A DNA stretch of 64,000 bases from Latilactobacillus sakei (GTDB taxonomy: Bacteria; Bacillota; Bacilli; Lactobacillales; Lactobacillaceae): positions 1,116,001-1,180,000 of the forward strand of contig CP025839.1 of the NCBI GenBank assembly GCA_002953655.1, in the 5' to 3' direction. This document shows positions 1,440 to 59,871 of the stretch, one piece after another. The translations under genes and the position numbers were made by a program. The notes under the pieces were generated by a model. The model saw only the letters and a list, made by a program, of their open reading frames with translations. It ran no database searches and was not told where the DNA came from. Every line of letters starts with the position of its first letter. The stretch's first letter is position 1.

Positions 1440-1556
1440 GGAAGTGCGTTCAAACTGATTATATTCTGAGCATTAGCCTAATACTGTGAATGAGCGACAG
1501 AGTCGATTATTTACGGTATGTTGCTAAGCACAGAAGTTAGTTTCAAAAAGCACGTT
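1440..1556 (+). repeat. Structured ~120-bp repeat, full copy behind carB
   Basis: This copy begins one base after the carB stop codon with GAAGTGCGTTCAAACTGA and ends with AAAAAGCACGTTA. It is the same element as the four tandem copies at 57493-57984, in the same orientation relative to transcription. The ends pair (GTGC with GCAC, AAACT with AGTTT). Inner stems TTAGC/GCTAA and CGAC/GTCG are also present. No protein is encoded in it. Confidence 0.85.
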
Positions 1557-1560
1557 ACAA

Positions 1561-1597
1561 AGAAGTGCGTTCATACTGATTGTATTCTGAACATTAT
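1561..1597 (+). repeat. Truncated second copy of the structured repeat
   Basis: About 36 bp match the first third of the preceding copy (GAAGTGCGTTCATACTGATT, then TATTCTGAACATTA). The match then stops where the terminator hairpin begins. This looks like a partial duplication or the remnant of a tandem array. Confidence 0.75.
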
Positions 1598-1598
1598 T

Positions 1599-13569: not shown

Positions 13570-13597
13570 GAAAACGTTCTTAAAATTTAAATATTAA

Positions 13598-13687
13598 CCA
13601 TCGCAAAGGGGAGCCATTGGCTGAGAGTGATTAGATGATCAGACCCTTCGAACCTGTTTGTTAAGACAAGCGTAGGAATTGTGATGG
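13598..13687 (+). ncRNA. TPP riboswitch (THI element)
   Basis: The conserved thi-box parts occur in order: GGGGAGCC, GGCTGAGAGT, GACCCTT, GAACCTG and GCGTAGGAA. Helix P1 is formed by CCATCGCAA (13598-13606) and TTGTGATGG (13679-13687). Binding of thiamine pyrophosphate is expected to allow the overlapping terminator to form and shut off thiT. Confidence 0.96.
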
Positions 13688-13711
13688 AGTTGAGACTTTA
13701 ACTCCTTTTTT
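13686..13711 (+). terminator. Riboswitch-controlled terminator upstream of thiT
   Basis: GGAGTT pairs with AACTCC and is followed by six T. The 5' arm overlaps the last two bases of riboswitch helix P1, so the two structures are linked. Confidence 0.85.
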
Positions 13712-50423: not shown

Positions 50424-52106
50424 TTAAGCATCCCATTCTTCGTCCATTTTTGCTTGGACCTTATTAGTTTCAACACGGCCCATTTTGACAGCAATGTCAT
50501 TTGTATAGCGATTCGTCAACATCGTATCGTTTGTATGACGAACATCTTCAATGGCATCATTAACGGCTTCAATCACAGTTGCAACGTTATCAGTCGTCGT
50601 TTTTTGATCTGTCACACCATCTAAGAAACAATACAAGGCACCTAATTTATTATAATTACGGATATCGTAGGCAATTGAAGGTACTTTTTCCGCTGCTGCT
50701 TCAATTTCAGCAATTGATCGTTTAGTAATTCGGCTAGCACTTGCTTTAGACATCGCTTGAACAGTAATTGCGTCACTGTTTAAAGCAATTAACCGACTAG
50801 ATTGTAACCCATGCGCCAAGAAAGCACCTGAAATAGCATTACCAACAACCACCCCAATTACCGGGTGCCCTGCTTGCCGTAATTTGGCATAAGCCGCTGC
50901 ACTATTTGCTAACGCCACATGAATCCCGATTAATTCTTCGTTATAACCGTAAGCTTGACTAGGGACATCAATGACGACAACGATTGGTCGTTTAACGATC
51001 TTATTTTGATCTTCTTCATAGACGTGATTTAAGATTTGTGCCATCCGGAAGCCTTCTACTAAGCCAACTTCACCATCTCGGACGCGATACATTGGATTTT
51101 TACCATCCGGTACAATTGTCGTTACGACAGCATCTTCATTAAAACGATCTGAATCACCGTAATAAACAGTACTAATTGTTGAACTTGGATTCTTTAACCC
51201 AGTTAGCGCTTGGAACCAGTCGTACCCAACACTGGCGGTTGCCGGTGTTGCTTGTTCAGTAATCACTGGTAGCTCAACTACTTGTGTTTGGTGTTTGGCA
51301 AGTATTTGATTATAGTCTTCAATGGCCATTGGTTTTGAAAGATCGAGTTTTGCCAATAATGACAAGTAAAAGTCAGCATTTTCACTACGGTGGCTATCTT
51401 TACGTTCAACCATTGCCGCCACGATTGCATCCTTAACATTTTCGACACTATCAGTCACCAATTCATCAATAATTTGAGCTTCAACGCGTTGACGGGCACC
51501 AATTGTATTCCAAATTAAATCTTTGTCGCTGGAATCAAATTCGCGGACACCGGCTTCTTGTTCGATTACTTCTGGGCCATTCAAGCCAACCCGCGCTTTT
51601 TTAGTCGTAATTAAATAACTCATTAAAGCTGAAGTAATGGACATCCCACCAAATGAACCAACTCGTCCAGGGACAACCCCAATGACGGGCACGTATTTTT
51701 TAAGCGCCACAATTAAGTTGCTAATTTCAGAAATTGAAAGTAGACCATAGTTGGCTTCTTGTAGCCGCACGCCACCAGTATCTAACACGATGATTGGGAA
51801 AATTTCATTACCATTTTGATTTTCAGTTAGGGCATGTGTTAGTGCAGCGATAATCTTTGCACCTGAAACTTCGCCAATCCCACCACCTTGGAAACTACCT
51901 TCCATTGCGATTACGACAACTTCTTTATTACCAATCGTCCCACGTGACACAATAATGCCATCATCACTTTCTGGGACAATTCCTTGGGCAATCAAGTTAG
52001 GGGCTGTCATTTGGTCAAAAGGACCAACTAATTCGCGACCAGTCGGTGTGTCTAATAAAGCATTCACCCGTTCGCGGGCCTTTAATTCTACAAAACTATT
52101 TTTCAT
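50424..52106 (-). CDS. Malonate decarboxylase beta-gamma fusion (MdcD-MdcE)
   Basis: This 560-residue protein joins two carboxyltransferase-fold subunits that decarboxylate malonyl-ACP. Residues 1 to about 275 match MdcD (beta): LVGPFDQMTAPNLIAQGIV, then EGSFQGGGIGEVSGAKIIAA near 70 and PGRVGSFGGMSITSALMSYL near 145. From about 295 the chain matches MdcE (gamma): YDWFQALTGLKNP, then VVIDVPSQAYGYNEELIGIH near 395 and VVVGNAISGAFLAHGLQSSR near 432. In the well-known Klebsiella and Acinetobacter systems these are separate genes. The linker around 270-290 is Thr/Ala-rich. The start overlaps mdcC by 11 bases. Confidence 0.9.
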   Translation of the reverse strand: MKNSFVELKARERVNALLDTPTGRELVGPFDQMTAPNLIAQGIVPESDDGIIVSRGTIGNKEVVVIAMEGSFQGGGIGEVSGAKIIAALTHALTENQNGNEIFPIIVLDTGGVRLQEANYGLLSISEISNLIVALKKYVPVIGVVPGRVGSFGGMSITSALMSYLITTKKARVGLNGPEVIEQEAGVREFDSSDKDLIWNTIGARQRVEAQIIDELVTDSVENVKDAIVAAMVERKDSHRSENADFYLSLLAKLDLSKPMAIEDYNQILAKHQTQVVELPVITEQATPATASVGYDWFQALTGLKNPSSTISTVYYGDSDRFNEDAVVTTIVPDGKNPMYRVRDGEVGLVEGFRMAQILNHVYEEDQNKIVKRPIVVVIDVPSQAYGYNEELIGIHVALANSAAAYAKLRQAGHPVIGVVVGNAISGAFLAHGLQSSRLIALNSDAITVQAMSKASASRITKRSIAEIEAAAEKVPSIAYDIRNYNKLGALYCFLDGVTDQKTTTDNVATVIEAVNDAIEDVRHTNDTMLTNRYTNDIAVKMGRVETNKVQAKMDEEWDA

Positions 52107-52395
52107 CAGCTAGTTCCTCCATTGCTTGTGTTAATCGGAGATAAACGACACCTGGTGTTGCACCAAAGTCATTAATCACAATGTCGGCCGAAATTGGATA
52201 GCGATCAAAGAAACGGGTTAAAACATTTCCCCATACCTCGTCAAAACCGTCACTACCGGTGCAGACTTTAACTGTTGATTCAGCTTTAGTGGTTGGAAAC
52301 ATTAAAATTTCCAAATCTCCTGATCCAACGACCCCGACGTGTACTCGTTTATTAATGGGTTGGCTTGTTTGATATTGATAAGCTAATTGTTCCAT
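52096..52395 (-). CDS. mdcC: Malonate decarboxylase acyl carrier protein (delta subunit)
   Basis: MdcC carries acetyl and malonyl groups on a phosphoribosyl-dephospho-CoA arm. The 99-residue protein has the attachment motif VGVVGSGDLEIL with Ser25, the same position as in Klebsiella MdcC, and the conserved FDRYPISADIVINDFGATPGVV near 63-84. GGGAGATTATC precedes ATG 52395. It is 15 bp behind mdcA and overlaps mdcDE. Confidence 0.94.
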   Translation of the reverse strand: MEQLAYQYQTSQPINKRVHVGVVGSGDLEILMFPTTKAESTVKVCTGSDGFDEVWGNVLTRFFDRYPISADIVINDFGATPGVVYLRLTQAMEELADEK

Positions 52396-52410
52396 GATAA
52401 TCTCCCTTTC

Positions 52411-54057
52411 CTATGACCAAGTTCTGAACTTCATTGGTGGTTGATATAGGCCATCTGACCATTCAACCAAATCATCAATTGTTTGCGCTGCTAATAATGA
52501 ACGTTTTGCATCGCTTCGTTTGATACCCAAGTCTTCAGGCAGTTTAACAATCCCAGCTCGGCGTAATTGATCCAATGATTCTTTAGTACTTGTCATGCCA
52601 AGTGGTGTTACGCCACCAATTGCGGCAATTGCGGCTTGACGCTGTTCTTTGCTAGTTGTCTTGTAAAGATAGGCAATCCCTTCTTCAGTCACAATATGCG
52701 TTGTATCTTCGCTATAAATCATAACGGGAGCATTTGCTAGGCTCGCTTGTTTTTGAACAGCAAGCGCATCTAAGGTTTCAACAAAAACTGGCTTCTTATT
52801 AGAACCGTATGTTTCAACCATTTGGACGACTAGTTTTTGGCCTTTGCCTAAAGGATTTTCTTCATCACGTAATGATTGCCATGCCGGTGTTGAATGACGA
52901 CGCCCACCAGGATTATGACCCATGTTAGGTGCACCACCAAAACCAGATAGACGACCTTTGGTAACAGTTGAAGAATTACCATCATAATCTAATTGCAGTG
53001 TTGAACCGATAAACATATCAACCGCATATTGCCCAGCCACTTGGCCTAGGACCCGGTTACTGCGCATCGTGCCATCTTGGCCTACGAAGAAAATATCAGG
53101 ACGAGCAGCGATATATTTTTCCATCCCAACTTCGCCACCAAAACTATGGATACTTTCAACCCAACCAGATTCAATCGCTGGAATAATTGTTGGATGTGGA
53201 TTTAAAGCCCAATTTTTAGCAATTTTCCCCTTAAGACCTAATGCTTCACCGTAAGTTGGTAAGAGGAGTTCAATGGCAGCTGTGTTGAAACCAATCCCAT
53301 GATTAAGTGATTGGACACCATGTTCTGCATAAATCCCTTTAATCGCCATCATTGCCATTAGAATCTGAAGTTCCGTAATATTTTGTGGATCACGGGTAAA
53401 GAGCGCTTCTAATTCATAAGGTTTGTCCGCTGGAACAACAACATCCACCCAGCCAGCAGGAATATCAATCCGTGGTAATTCATCAACAACTTCATTGACT
53501 TGAACGATCACAATCCCGTCTTTAAAAGCGGCTGCTTCAACAATCGTTGGTGTTTCTTCGGTATTAAAGCCGGTATATAAATTTCCTGCTTTGTCCGCTT
53601 TATCCGCAGCCACCAATACGACATTAGGAATTAAATCAATGAATAAGCGACCATATAGTTCTAAATAAGTATGAATGTCGCCTAATTTCATTTTGCCGTC
53701 TTCGATCATTTGCGCAACACGAACACTTTGTGCCCCTGCATATGAAAAATCAATTTTTGAAGCAATTTGGCGTTCAAAGATATTCAAATGTTCAGGACGT
53801 GAAATACTCGACATAATCATGTGTAAATTGTTTACTTTTTCAGGGTTAACTTGTTCTAAACTTTGTGACAAGAAACTGGCTTGCTTTTGATTATCCCCTT
53901 CTAAAACGACCTTATCACCAGGGGCGATTAAGGCCTCTAGAACTGTGATAATTTGGTCTGTTTCGACATACTTACCAGTCATTAACTGACTAATTTTCGC
54001 TAATCGTTGTGCTTTTTGAACTCGTTTCGTGTCCCAATTGCGTTGTGGTTTTTCCAT
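52411..54057 (-). CDS. mdcA: Malonate decarboxylase alpha subunit (ACP transferase)
   Basis: MdcA swaps acetyl for malonyl on the carrier protein (acetyl-ACP:malonate ACP transferase) and belongs to the CoA-transferase fold. The 548-residue protein has the start RNWDTKRVQKAQRLAKISQL, LEGDNQKQASFLSQSLEQV near 54, FSYAGAQSVRVAQMIEDGKMKLGD near 107 and SGFGGAPNMGHNPGGRRHSTPAW near 375, a family-specific run. Length is normal for MdcA. It starts five bases behind mdcH after GGAGATG. Confidence 0.94.
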   Translation of the reverse strand: MEKPQRNWDTKRVQKAQRLAKISQLMTGKYVETDQIITVLEALIAPGDKVVLEGDNQKQASFLSQSLEQVNPEKVNNLHMIMSSISRPEHLNIFERQIASKIDFSYAGAQSVRVAQMIEDGKMKLGDIHTYLELYGRLFIDLIPNVVLVAADKADKAGNLYTGFNTEETPTIVEAAAFKDGIVIVQVNEVVDELPRIDIPAGWVDVVVPADKPYELEALFTRDPQNITELQILMAMMAIKGIYAEHGVQSLNHGIGFNTAAIELLLPTYGEALGLKGKIAKNWALNPHPTIIPAIESGWVESIHSFGGEVGMEKYIAARPDIFFVGQDGTMRSNRVLGQVAGQYAVDMFIGSTLQLDYDGNSSTVTKGRLSGFGGAPNMGHNPGGRRHSTPAWQSLRDEENPLGKGQKLVVQMVETYGSNKKPVFVETLDALAVQKQASLANAPVMIYSEDTTHIVTEEGIAYLYKTTSKEQRQAAIAAIGGVTPLGMTSTKESLDQLRRAGIVKLPEDLGIKRSDAKRSLLAAQTIDDLVEWSDGLYQPPMKFRTWS

Positions 54058-54062
54058 CTAGT

Positions 54063-54971
54063 TCATCTCCATTTTCGATATAGAAACGTTGCATCATCAA
54101 TGCCATGTTGGCTGATATTAATCGTCCGGATTAACTGCTCTCCAAAATTAGCATGAATCAACTTTGTTAACGTATTGCCTGGCGGAAATTCAATCGTCAG
54201 ATCCATTCCCATTTCCTTAGCAACGGCCATCATTTGTCGCCATTGTACTGGTTGTTCAATATTGGCTAATAAATCTTGACGAATGGCTTCTGCATCCTGT
54301 GTGAGCCGCCCATCCGTATTCTTCAAGTACGGACAAGTTGCCGGCTGCAAAGTCAACTGGTTAATGTAAGGTCTTAATTGTTCAACGGTTGCTTGCATCA
54401 ACTTACAATGTGATGGCACCGGAACCTTCAATAACTTAGCAGTTCGTGCTTGACGCTGCTTAGCTAGTGCCAAAGTCTTCTCAAGGCCAATTATGGCACC
54501 CGAGATTGTATGCTGCATTGGGCAGTTCTCGTTTGAAAGATAGACCGGATAATCAGGATCAAATGTTTCTTGAACTACTTGAGCCGCCTCATCCCGGGTC
54601 AATCCAACCATAACACCCATCGCATAACCGCTTGGATAAGCAGCCTTCATTAACATTGCTCGTTGATAGACCAACCACACGGCATCATCAAACGATAACG
54701 TTTGACAAGCGACAGCAGCGGCAAAAGCCCCCAACGAATGTCCAGCAACCAAATCCGGCACGATGTCATTCTTTTGGATTTCGTCTAAAGCAAATAATGC
54801 CTTCACTAACAACGCCAATTGGATAAAGACGGTATCCTCATAATTCTGAGGGACATCAATTAATTGATAGCCCGTCACTTTAGCGACCCGCTCAAGGTAT
54901 TCAGCGGGAATATCTTGTAACATACCAACTTGTTGACTACCTTGCCCTGGAAATAAAAATGCTGTACTCAT
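54063..54971 (-). CDS. mdcH: Malonyl-CoA:ACP transacylase MdcH
   Basis: MdcH primes the carrier protein by transferring malonyl from malonyl-CoA. The 302-residue protein is a FabD-like transacylase with LFPGQGSQQVGML at the start, the nucleophile Ser in VAGHSLGAFAAAVA near 87, the malonyl-binding Arg in VWLVYQRAMLMK near 108, and the His of VPVPSHCKLM near 192. It is the first gene of the mdc operon, with AAAGGAGGAG before ATG 54971, and is divergent from the LysR gene. Its place in the operon separates it from the housekeeping fabD. Confidence 0.92.
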   Translation of the reverse strand: MSTAFLFPGQGSQQVGMLQDIPAEYLERVAKVTGYQLIDVPQNYEDTVFIQLALLVKALFALDEIQKNDIVPDLVAGHSLGAFAAAVACQTLSFDDAVWLVYQRAMLMKAAYPSGYAMGVMVGLTRDEAAQVVQETFDPDYPVYLSNENCPMQHTISGAIIGLEKTLALAKQRQARTAKLLKVPVPSHCKLMQATVEQLRPYINQLTLQPATCPYLKNTDGRLTQDAEAIRQDLLANIEQPVQWRQMMAVAKEMGMDLTIEFPPGNTLTKLIHANFGEQLIRTINISQHGIDDATFLYRKWR

Positions 54972-55091: not shown

Positions 55092-55952
55092 ATGAAATTA
55101 ATTCATTTACAATACTTTAAAAAGGTCTTTGAAACTCAAAATATTACGCAGGCAGCCAAGGCACTCTATATTTCACAGCCGGCACTTAGCCGCGCCATTA
55201 AACATCTAGAATCTGAGTTAGGGGTAACACTGTTTTATCACACCGGTCGTAATATTGAAGCAACACCATATGCCCATACCTTCTACCCCTACGTTACCAA
55301 GACACTAGCCATTCTTGATGACGGATTTCGCGCAGTTACTGCCTTAAATAAGGAGATTATTACCTCAGTGACACTTTGTTTAGAAGTCGCCTCTGTGTCG
55401 GTGCCAAACCTAATTCGAATTTTTTCAGAAAAACATCCTGATATTAAATTAACAATTATCCAACATCATCTCCCAGAAAATATTAATGAATCGGTTTTAT
55501 TTATTACATCGGATTCAAAGCCGGATTTAAATAATGTCCCGATTATAAGAGAGCCCGTCTTAGTCGCTATCCCGAAATCACATCCATTAGCTCACAAAGC
55601 AATTTTGCAAACAAGTGATATTGAACAAACACCCATTATTATGTTAAGTCCCAGCAATGCTTTTCGTAATACGATTGATATGGCGCTTGAAGCTAATCAT
55701 ATTCACCCTAAAATTAGTTCAACCACGGATGATCCTGGCACATTGCGCTCCATCATCAATCAGGGATTAGGAATCACCTTCTTCCCGCAAATTTCTTGGT
55801 CATATCGAGCTAACGATCACTTCGTCCTCAAAGAAATTGCGGATGTCTCAATTGAACGAACTATCTATCTTTCTTCAACACTGCGAAAAGATCACCCGCT
55901 TGTTGAAACAATTGTGACGACACTCCGAGAATGGTTCATCTGCCACAATTAA
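55092..55952 (+). CDS. LysR family regulator, probable activator of the mdc operon
   Basis: This 286-residue LysR protein has the helix-turn-helix in YFKKVFETQNITQAAKALYI and SQPALSRAIKHLESELGVTLF (residues 8-48) and an effector-binding domain from about 90 (VTLCLEVASVSVPNLIRIFSEKHPDIKL). It is divergently transcribed from mdcH, the arrangement of MdcR in Klebsiella-type loci, so malonate-responsive control of mdc is a fair inference. AAGGTGG precedes ATG 55092. It ends at a shared terminator. Confidence 0.88.
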   Translation: MKLIHLQYFKKVFETQNITQAAKALYISQPALSRAIKHLESELGVTLFYHTGRNIEATPYAHTFYPYVTKTLAILDDGFRAVTALNKEIITSVTLCLEVASVSVPNLIRIFSEKHPDIKLTIIQHHLPENINESVLFITSDSKPDLNNVPIIREPVLVAIPKSHPLAHKAILQTSDIEQTPIIMLSPSNAFRNTIDMALEANHIHPKISSTTDDPGTLRSIINQGLGITFFPQISWSYRANDHFVLKEIADVSIERTIYLSSTLRKDHPLVETIVTTLREWFICHN

Positions 55953-56514: not shown

Positions 56515-57465
56515 CTAAACCGCAACGGGTGCTTTAATTGCGGGTTCTGATTCATAATTTTCCACTTTAATATCAGCAACATCAAAATCAAAGATACTCT
56601 GCTTGTCTGGATTTAACCACAATTTGGGGGCAGCATGCATTGGCCGTGCCAATTGAGTCTTCACTTGGGTCACGTGGTTACTGTAAATATGCGCATCTCC
56701 CAGCGTATGGATGAATTCACCGACTTCAAGCCCCGTTTCATGGGCAATCAAATGCGTTAATAACGCATAGCTAGCGATGTTAAACGGTACACCGAGGAAG
56801 ACATCGCCACTTCGTTGATAGAGTTGACATGAGAGTTTACCATCGTTGACGTAAAATTGGAACATGGTATGACAAGGTGGTAAAGCCATACTAGGCACAT
56901 CTTCTGGATTCCAAGCAGACACAATTAAGCGGCGTGAGTCAGGATTTTTTTTAATCATTTCGATGACATTTTTAATTTGATCGATGGTTTCGCCGGAACG
57001 TGTTTGCCAAGCGCGCCATTGCTTACCGTAAATATCACCTAATTCGCCATATTGTTTCGCAAATGCTTCGTCGGCTAAGATCCGTTCGTTAAATAGACGC
57101 ATTTGTTCTTGATAAACGGCTTTGAAATCAGCATCATCTTGGGCCCGATGACTGAAATCGGTCATGTCAGGGCCGCTGTAATCAGCACTTTTAACAAAGC
57201 GTTCAAACGCCCATTCATCCCAGATATGATTATTGTGTTGTAATAAATAACGAATATTAGAATCCCCTTTTAAAAACCACAAGAGTTCGCTCTTGATTAA
57301 GCCAAAGGGCACCTTCTTGGTTGTTAATAAAGGAAATCCCTCTTGTAAATTAAAACGCATTTGGTAGCCAAAGAGGCTGTAGGTACCGGTATTAGTCCGA
57401 TCTTCCTTGTAGTGCCCCTCTGCTAAGATTGTCCGTGCTAAATCGAGGTATACTTGTTCTGACAT
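56515..57465 (-). CDS. thyA: Thymidylate synthase
   Basis: ThyA methylates dUMP to dTMP using methylene-tetrahydrofolate. The 316-residue protein has [23 protein letters not shown] at the start, the catalytic Cys in [13 protein letters not shown] near 200, and [20 protein letters not shown] near 220. I chose the ATG at 57465 ([10 protein letters not shown]), which follows AAGGGAG; an upstream in-frame Met (57507) reaches into the repeat array and is rejected. A small insert typical of the Lactobacillus long-type ThyA is present near 90-140. Confidence 0.96.
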
Positions 57466-57492: not shown

Positions 57493-57984
57493 TAACGTGC
57501 TTTTCAAGCTAACTTTCTGCGCTTAGCTTCGTACGCCAAATAATCGACACCGTCGGTTATTCGCCCCACTGTGCTAATGCTCGAAAGTTGACCAAACTTG
57601 AACGCACTTCTTTCTTTAATGTGCTTTTTGAAACTGACTCCTGCGCTTAACCATATTTGTCAAATCAGCGATTACATCGCTAATCTGCCAAATCCAGTTA
57701 ATGCTCAGAGTCAAACCGTTTCAAACGCACTTCTTTCTTTAACGTGTTTTTCAAACCATATTCCTGTGCCTAGCGCCATAAGTCAAACGATTCCTTCCAG
57801 TAATCATTCGCCTTATTATGCTAGTGCTCGGAACATAACCGGGCTGAACGCACTTCCCTTCTTTAACGTGCTTTTCAGCCCATACTTCTGCGGCTAGCCA
57901 CGTCCCGCAAATGCCCGACTTTGTCGGCCATTCACTGGACTACGCTAGTCCTCAAAGTATAACCGGGCTGAGCGCACTTCTTTA
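57493..57984 (-). repeat. Four tandem copies of a structured ~122-bp repeat
   Basis: Four degenerate copies (about 57493-57613, 57617-57735, 57740-57858, 57864-57984) fill the gap between the ABC-F gene and thyA. Each reads on the + strand from AACGTGCTTTT to ACGCACTTC and folds end to end: GTGC/GCAC, then two variable stems, then TTAGC/GCTAA-type stem, then a central hairpin (for example AGCGAT-TAC-ATCGCT at 57667-57681). The stems differ between copies but remain paired. The array starts right after the ABC-F stop codon (TAAAGAAGTGCG on the minus strand) and ends 28 bp before the thyA start. Confidence 0.88.
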
Positions 57985-59871
57985 GTCTGCGTATTCGCTT
58001 AGGTAGTCCCAGCGCGCCATTTTTTCATCTAGTTCTTGGTTTAAACGATCTAACTCAGCTTGCCATTCGGCTAATTTACCGTAATCAGCACCATTTTGAT
58101 TCATCTCAGTCTTGATTGTTTCGATTTGTTCATCTAGTTTTTCAAGATCTGTTTCAATATGGGCGTATTCCTTTTGTTCGTTATACGTTAACTTATGTTT
58201 AGCGGCTGGTTCCTTAACCGTTTCGACAGTGACTTCAGGTGTGGGCTTAGGTGCTGCAGCCTTTGTTGTCGCTGTTTTTTGTTTAGCCAAGTAATCACTG
58301 AATAGGCCGACTTCTGTCGTAATGTTGCCGTGGCCATCAAGCACCAATAATTTATCGGCGACTTGATCTAGGAAATACCGGTCATGGGAAACGGTAATGA
58401 CGGTCCCATTAAAGTTTTCAAGATAGTTTTCAAGAATCGTCAATGTTCCAATATCAAGGTCATTAGTTGGTTCATCCAATAATAAAACGTTCGGTTGTTG
58501 CATCAATAATTTCAAGAGATACAACCGGCGTTTTTCACCACCAGATAATTTCTTAATTAACGTCCCATGTGTTGACCGGTCAAAGAGGAACTGTTCCAAT
58601 AATTGCGTGACACTAATCCGGTCCCCATTTTTACCGATAACTTCTTCGCCGGCTTCTTGGAGGTAAGCAATCACCCGTTTATCAAGATCTAAATCTTCAT
58701 TTTGTTGCGTGTAATAACCCAAGTTAACCGTCTCACCGACGACCAATTCACCACTATCTAGCGGGATCCGTTCAGCTAAAACATTTAGTAGTGAGGACTT
58801 ACCAGCACCGTTCACCCCAGTAATCCCAATTCGATCATTAGCTTGCACTAACAAGCTGAAATCTTTCAGGATAGGATGCGCATCAAGTGTTAAGTTAGCG
58901 TCTTTGAGTTCTAAGACCTTCTTGCCTAAACGTGATTGGCCCATTTGAATATCAACTTCGGCAGTATCCGGCCCAGTTGTCAGATTGCCCTTCAAATCGT
59001 TAAACCGATTGATTCGCGCTTGTTGTTTTGTCGTCCGAGCTTTAGCCCCGGCGCGCATCCACGTCAACTCTTGCTTATAGAGTTGTTGTTGTTTGTGGGC
59101 GGCTTGTTGTTCGCGTTCAAGCCGGTCCGCTTTTTGTGTTAAGAATTGTTCGTAGTTCCCGGTATACGTATAGAGTTGACCGGCGTCCAATTCAAAAATT
59201 TGATTTGCGACCCGATCCAAGAAATAGCGATCATGCGTCACGATTAAAAGTGCGCCCTTATATTGTGCTAAGCGTTTTTCCAACCATTCGATAGAATCAA
59301 AATCAAGGTGGTTAGTCGGTTCGTCTAAGATTAATAAATCGGGGCTTTCAATCAAGGCTTGTGCCAAACCAACCCGTTTTTGTTGGCCCCCCGAGAGCGT
59401 ATTAATCGGTTGATCTAAGTCAGTTAAATGCAATTGCGTCAAAATTGTTTTGATATCGGTATCCACGGTCCAAGCATCTTGTTGCGTCATCTGCGCATCA
59501 GCTTGTTCATATTGCGTTTGCAACTTAGGATTCGTTGGATCGGCCGTATAAGCTGCCAGGACACGTTCGTAATTCTGAATCGTCTTAAACACTGGATTTT
59601 GGCCGGCAAAAATAGCGGCCATGATACTCAAATTAGTATCAAAGACCGGTTTTTGCGCTAAATAACTCATCGCGTATTGATTAGGTGTTTCAATCTGGCC
59701 ACTATCATAAGAGTCAGTGCCTGTTAACGCGTTTAATAATGTCGTCTTCCCAGTCCCGTTAATCCCAACGAGGCCAATTCGATCACCTTCGCGAATTAAA
59801 AATGAGATATCTTTAAAGAGCGTTTTTTCGCCATAAGTCTTCGTTAAGTTCGTCGCTGTTAATGTTTGCAA
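57982..59871 (-). CDS. ABC-F family ATPase, Uup/YfmR type
   Basis: This 629-residue soluble ABC-F protein has two nucleotide-binding domains without membrane parts. Domain 1 has GINGTGKTTLLNAL near 37, LSGGQQKRVGLAQAL near 160 and LDEPTNHLDF near 180. The inter-domain P-site linker (residues about 235-310) is Gln/Arg-rich (LYKQELTWMRAGAKARTTKQ). Domain 2 has GVNGAGKSSLLNVL near 355, LSGGEKRRLYLLKLL near 445 and LDEPTNDLDI. A coiled-coil C-terminal domain follows from about 560 (LDEQIETIKTEM), the mark of the Uup/YfmR branch, which acts on stalled ribosomes. The start codon appears to be TTG, preceded by AAAGGTG. Confidence 0.9.
   Translation of the reverse strand: MQTLTATNLTKTYGEKTLFKDISFLIREGDRIGLVGINGTGKTTLLNALTGTDSYDSGQIETPNQYAMSYLAQKPVFDTNLSIMAAIFAGQNPVFKTIQNYERVLAAYTADPTNPKLQTQYEQADAQMTQQDAWTVDTDIKTILTQLHLTDLDQPINTLSGGQQKRVGLAQALIESPDLLILDEPTNHLDFDSIEWLEKRLAQYKGALLIVTHDRYFLDRVANQIFELDAGQLYTYTGNYEQFLTQKADRLEREQQAAHKQQQLYKQELTWMRAGAKARTTKQQARINRFNDLKGNLTTGPDTAEVDIQMGQSRLGKKVLELKDANLTLDAHPILKDFSLLVQANDRIGITGVNGAGKSSLLNVLAERIPLDSGELVVGETVNLGYYTQQNEDLDLDKRVIAYLQEAGEEVIGKNGDRISVTQLLEQFLFDRSTHGTLIKKLSGGEKRRLYLLKLLMQQPNVLLLDEPTNDLDIGTLTILENYLENFNGTVITVSHDRYFLDQVADKLLVLDGHGNITTEVGLFSDYLAKQKTATTKAAAPKPTPEVTVETVKEPAAKHKLTYNEQKEYAHIETDLEKLDEQIETIKTEMNQNGADYGKLAEWQAELDRLNQELDEKMARWDYLSEYAD

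Follow-up and report, generated by a model that had tools for sequence, protein, structure and literature searches.

Between an ABC-F gene and thyA, the window (the whole 64,000-nt stretch of the Latilactobacillus sakei contig CP025839.1 that was analysed) carries a tandem array of a folding element. Four copies extend from 57493 to 57981, in agreement with the first-pass annotation, with a unit of 118 nt, A-rich spacers of 5–6 nt and a start-to-start period of 123–124 nt. The five copies counted in that annotation are all present, and a truncated sixth adjoins the fifth. The features are listed below; bit scores refer to R1, a covariance model of the element.

57982–59871, minus strand: ABC-F family ATPase gene, upstream of the array (translated ORF, profile matches)
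57982–57984, minus strand: TAA stop of the ABC-F gene, immediately adjoining copy 1 at distance 0 (sequence, end of the ORF)
57864–57981, minus strand: element copy 1 in transcription order, nearest the ABC-F stop (118.2 bits; fold −61.2 kcal/mol)
57740–57857, minus strand: element copy 2 in transcription order (117.6 bits; fold −36.8 kcal/mol)
57617–57734, minus strand: element copy 3 in transcription order (117.8 bits; fold −50.4 kcal/mol)
57493–57611, minus strand: element copy 4, 27 nt before the thyA start codon (109.7 bits; fold −45.3 kcal/mol)
56515–57465, minus strand: thyA, thymidylate synthase, downstream of the array (ORF, profile match)
1440–1557, plus strand: fifth full copy, 1 nt past the carB stop codon at 1436–1438 (96.3 bits; fold −42.5 kcal/mol)
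1559–1598, plus strand: truncated sixth copy, 5' third only, adjoining the fifth (blastn of the copies against the window, sequence)

The best full-length matches of the ABC-F gene product are the Uup and EttA models, with a score under the Uup cut-off, and the gene upstream of the fifth copy was assigned as carB by its match to the CarB model. The truncated sixth copy is directly followed by an intrinsic-terminator-like hairpin (approximately 1599–1637). Array copies share about 67–83% identity where alignable; this, together with the short A-rich spacers, agrees with the earlier statement that the array is not a CRISPR locus. Elsewhere, the window includes a TPP riboswitch (13597–13695, plus strand; Rfam RF00059, above the gathering score) and, from a reading of the translations only, a malonate decarboxylase-like gene cluster (50424–54971, minus strand) and a LysR-type regulator divergent from it (55092–55952).

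Fold, covariation and strand

The 118-nt unit consists of one long rod with seven helices and conserved internal loops. Each array copy folds along its whole length, as had been proposed, with minus-strand z scores of −7.5, −3.4, −8.5 and −5.2 from the copy at 57864 down to that at 57493 and none of 200 shuffles as stable. The plus-strand folds are weaker (−50.3, −26.5, −37.4 and −34.3 kcal/mol in the same order), and the array folds best on the strand that is sense to both the ABC-F gene and thyA. The RNA reads in coding sense from the minus strand, which corrects the first-pass annotation with respect to orientation. The constant ends (GTGCTTTT and ACGCACTTC), described there as loop-side, in fact constitute the base of the hairpin, where they form the outermost GUGC/GCAC helix. 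The 5' foot of the element is a GAGTG/AAGTG motif, and the 3' side of the rod ends in GCACGUUW.

The compensatory stem changes originally listed are found in the sequence. A rod of 40 pairs was derived from a MAFFT alignment of 17 copies from this genome (A3) that was not fitted to any structure, and 28 of these pairs have changed on both sides. A second alignment (A7) holds 111 sequences across genera, aligned to the model; it is fitted to the structure and hence biased towards it, with standard pairs in 95.2% of pair cells compared with 64.1% when partners are shuffled, and a covariation score of 0.817 compared with 0.22 for shuffled partners and 0.07–0.14 when the structure is slid by 1–3 columns. 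Covariation was also measured above the phylogenetic background, using our own implementation of an R-scape-like test, in which parsimony substitutions on a FastTree tree are re-dealt over the columns branch by branch, so that the null preserves the tree and the substitutions per branch, and pairs are scored with an APC-corrected G statistic. By this test, 29 of the 40 structure pairs are significant across genera, and 21 of the 40 within this genome alone. In the cross-genus test, only three significant pairs lie outside the structure; two resemble extra basal pairs, and one joins both ends. The original argument that covariation reflects selection on, or repeated generation of, a folded RNA or DNA is thus supported.

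The ratio of G-U to A-C apposition in the cross-genus alignment is 287:24, which assigns the fold to the sense RNA strand. Together with the sense position of copies after stop codons, this favours RNA over DNA, although single-stranded DNA of the same strand may be an alternative. That the element is a folded sense-strand RNA is well supported. Six unpaired bases are near-invariant (A4, G24, G35, A36, A39 and A131 in alignment numbering; 1.87–2.0 bits), and most paired columns, like the apical loop, display little sequence conservation.

A long double-stranded rod is a suitable substrate for RNase III, and the conserved loops could bind a protein. Copies might on this account be processed from mRNA, for instance by RNase III, into RNAs of about 120 nt that act in trans on targets of their own, and some copies that are antisense to both neighbours do end in their own conserved tail and a terminator-like hairpin. 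With neither the apical loop nor most of the paired sequence conserved, there is, however, no shared seed for target pairing, and the number of divergent copies (130) makes a role in trans unlikely. We regard a family of trans-acting small RNAs as improbable.

Copies in this genome have diverged from their orthologues in the closest relative (G005) by 3.2% at paired and 7.0% at unpaired sites. The pair changes comprise 36 switches between Watson-Crick and G-U pairs, 14 that make or undo A-C and 14 other mismatches. Of approximately 68 pairs changed between the sister species, 30 are switches between paired and unpaired states, which indicates that any one copy is under no more than moderate selection.

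Two kinds of structural variant were also observed. Columns 2 and 160 of A7 (2 and 166 of A4) covary, AGAAGTG starts occurring with GTTA ends and NAGAGTG starts with GTTT ends; this may represent an extra end pair or two subfamilies. In some copies, the upper rod is deleted, which leaves about 25 or 66 nt, or a different stem takes its place, with the base still paired (locus L105, about 1925–1950; L151, 7877–7942; L148, 1801–1922), which corresponds to hairpin-internal deletion with re-pairing.

Placement at stop codons

Each array-leading copy was scored by its distance from the stop of a reading frame on the same strand with 80 codons or more. Of the 88 such copies in this genome, 60 begin −3 to +8 nt from the upstream stop; among the controls, this held for 3 of 528 positions obtained by shifting and for 2 of 88 on the opposite strand. 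Sense copies of this genome occupy −3 to +8, with none at +9 to +15. In other Lactobacillaceae genera, 41 of 118 copies from a pattern-derived sample are located at a stop, compared with 14 of 684 controls, and the rest are spread through intergenic space. Not all copies adjoin a stop: about one-third of those in this genome and over half of those in other genera lie elsewhere, some of them antisense to both neighbouring genes.

The upstream genes include groEL, clpP, nusG, rplL, rpsN, acpP, glmS, glmM, leuS, serS, dnaB, apt, rpiA, galU and pcrA, together with phosphotransacetylase and HMG-CoA synthase genes. The L7/L12, S14 and GlmS profiles match to their last position, so that native C-termini lie upstream of the element, and in two L. 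curvatus records, annotated independently by NCBI, the CDS ends fall no more than a few nt from the element match. Truncation of proteins by the element, or the supply of stop codons by it, was mostly rejected on account of these native C-termini and of a filled/empty pair of sites that shares its stop codon. In the class of copies beginning at −3, the stop is TAG in 12 of 15 cases, which suggests that the AG of the element replaced the end of some stops.

Location at gene 3' ends and very stable hairpins are also what repeats of an intrinsic transcription terminator would display. Such a function is very improbable for the element, whose rod has no U-run at its GCACGUUW end. At many sites, separate terminator-like hairpins with T-runs follow it, and many copies are positioned inside operon-like same-strand gene pairs, as between the ABC-F gene and thyA, where the last copy precedes the start codon by 27 nt. 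The terminator-like hairpins that recur 3' of elements in this genome share, in many cases, the core GACAAAATTAnTTTTGTC but differ in their outer stems, as though they were a repeat family of their own or part of the mobile unit.

Dispersal and turnover

Construction of a covariance model, as the first-pass annotation had suggested, extended the view from one locus to genome-wide dispersal, stop-codon placement and spread across the Bacilli. R1 detects about 131 non-overlapping copies in this 2.1-Mb genome, distributed over 84 sites. All six sampled Latilactobacillus genomes match, with about 20 to at least 150 copies each among the matches listed. Across the Lactobacillaceae, 127 of 301 sampled genomes, in 19 of 40 genera, have R1 matches, and many genomes have none. 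Hosts include Lactiplantibacillus plantarum, Levilactobacillus, Lapidilactobacillus, Companilactobacillus, Paucilactobacillus, Pediococcus acidilactici, Periweissella, Secundilactobacillus, Loigolactobacillus and Lacticaseibacillus saniviri. With R2, a broader model, matches extend to 118 of 395 Lactobacillales genomes (35 of 80 genera, in several families) and to some other Bacilli; among the sampled genomes listed for one family (f4), none matched. One host genus outside the Lactobacillales has an FBP aldolase gene that we take to be staphylococcal, and there the array starts at the stop of this gene, with the TAA inside the first nucleotides of the element. Distant copies from other families and classes are tandem too, with a period of 115–124 nt (L181, L183, L374, L380 and L381), and copies of two sequence types alternate in the array at L380. 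No phage record searched with the element gave a match; plasmid matches were confined to three L. curvatus records, in two of which, on examination, the elements are unannotated.

Copies have spread between loci and have been gained and lost between sister species. The site between the ABC-F gene and thyA holds four copies in this genome, three in G001, two in G004, one in G002, none in G003 and a truncated remnant in G005, and the junctions inspected in related genera carry no element. In G003, about 20 nt separate the stop from the ATG; in G004, the ABC-F stop is a TGA within the element; and the single copy of G002 has an upper stem that is shortened but re-paired. At 28 sites compared with G005, whose flanks are mostly 86–99% identical, the two genomes differ at many spans by a whole number of units of about 123 nt, and a few spans are empty or almost empty. 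At one filled/empty pair, L150, the flanks are AT-rich and no target duplication is clearly recognisable.

Another genome, G046, contains about nine copies that are 95–100% identical and located at unrelated loci, 7–47 nt past stops or elsewhere, with a shared 3' tail that runs into a terminator-like hairpin. The near-identity and the common tail indicate recent dispersal; a similar tail is shared by a subset of copies in this genome. An origin of the arrays mainly by tandem duplication was rejected, since for 58 of 65 copies the best match within the genome lies at another locus. Three tandem copies with identical scores do occur in G001.

Given the patchiness and turnover, the strongest rival to a function for the host is a selfish element. 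The repeat would then be a purely selfish, non-autonomous mobile element whose fold, as RNA or as single-stranded DNA of one strand, serves the copying or insertion machinery only, sites past stops being the least harmful and the host gene unaffected. Counts that range from 0 to at least 150 per genome among the matches listed, almost identical copies at unrelated loci in G046, orthologous sites that are empty or shortened, array copies mostly closer to those at other loci than to their neighbours, and the lack of any host gene class that is obviously required are all in line with this reading. By contrast, harmlessness alone predicts a spread over the 3' UTR instead of the narrow interval of −3 to +8 occupied by sense copies. 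Searches of this genome detected neither a Y1/RAYT transposase (PF01797; the E. coli control was positive) nor a reverse transcriptase (PF00078), and no clear target duplication was seen. We consider a purely selfish nature possible but rather doubtful; selfishness and an effect on the host can both hold.

Relation to known repeats and possible function

No Rfam family (release 15) covers the element in the window or in 15 copy-bearing loci, distant ones included, which is consistent with the initial view that no named family fits. A literature search of open-licence papers likewise returned no description of it. The first-pass annotation had also considered a scattered family devoid of structural conservation; the copies are indeed scattered, but their structure is conserved.

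A parallel in position is offered by the REP/BIME sequences of E. coli. These are palindromic repeats dispersed at the 3' ends of genes, and a subset of them lies at most 15 nt from stops. By position, sense copies of the element likewise start within 15 nt of a stop (60 of 88 compared with 3 of 528). REPs are, however, only 20–40 nt long, linked to RAYT (Y1) transposases and marked by a GTAG/CGTC-type tag, whereas the present element has 118 nt, seven helices and a GAGTG/AAGTG foot. According to a statement in PMC12306157 that cites earlier work, REPs of E. coli that lie up to 15 nt from stop codons cause ribosomes to stall.

Among repeats of Firmicutes, EFAR of Enterococcus faecalis, which we assume to be the same as Efa-1, is also a small folding repeat in a related organism and is counted among the MITEs. 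Efa-1 measures 163 nt and is described as two adjacent stem-loops, and it is by this description alone that it is set apart from the single rod found here. The bcr1–bcr18 repeats of the Bacillus cereus group are interspersed, about half of them are transcribed within UTRs, and some have conserved RNA structure, as outlined in parts of PMC3446304; bcr1 is said to be confined to the B. cereus group, which separates it from the element by description only, and stop-codon locking is not among the features that these parts report. ERIC, RUP, NEMIS and other MITE-like repeats are similarly intergenic, 70–300 nt long, robustly folded and transcribed with their neighbours. MITEs have transposase-recognised terminal inverted repeats, usually of 15–30 nt, and usually target duplications; here the inverted ends amount to the GUGC/GCAC base helix of about 4–5 nt, and no clear duplication or candidate transposase was found. 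A group II intron or retroelement would call for a reverse transcriptase in trans, a domain absent from this genome. By the tests run, the element is not a REP, a group II intron, a CRISPR or a member of an Rfam family, with EFAR and bcr compared by description only.

We infer the function of the element and its mode of spread as follows. The explanation we favour, at about even chances, is a dispersed family of structured 3'-UTR RNAs that spreads as mobile copies and acts where translation ends. The element would be transcribed together with the upstream gene, and its basal GUGC/GCAC helix, starting about 4 nt past the stop, would be overlapped by the terminating ribosome. The fold would act at this junction, most likely in one or both of two ways: protection of the coding region against 3'-to-5' exonucleases, and detection by the terminating ribosome. 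The elements would have arrived as mobile copies, stop-adjacent placement marking insertion that is tolerated or favoured there. An effect on translation termination or 3' decay is our best guess because of the stop-codon position, the essential genes served and the behaviour of REPs; the patchy copy number and the empty orthologous site, in turn, argue against an essential host function.

A bolder and more tentative proposal is that of an ancient, mobile RNA element of the Bacilli, targeted to or selected at stop codons, that senses or modulates termination and 3'-end decay of housekeeping mRNAs and represents a class of stop-codon-anchored structured RNA repeats to which no named family corresponds. 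Dispersed repeats usually decay, whereas compensatory change has preserved this fold in several families of Bacilli as the paired sequence drifted. If functional, the element would be a general 3'-end control element that has been overlooked in food bacteria as well studied as Lactiplantibacillus plantarum and Pediococcus; a selfish element, on the other reading, would be a mobile element with an unusual insertion rule.
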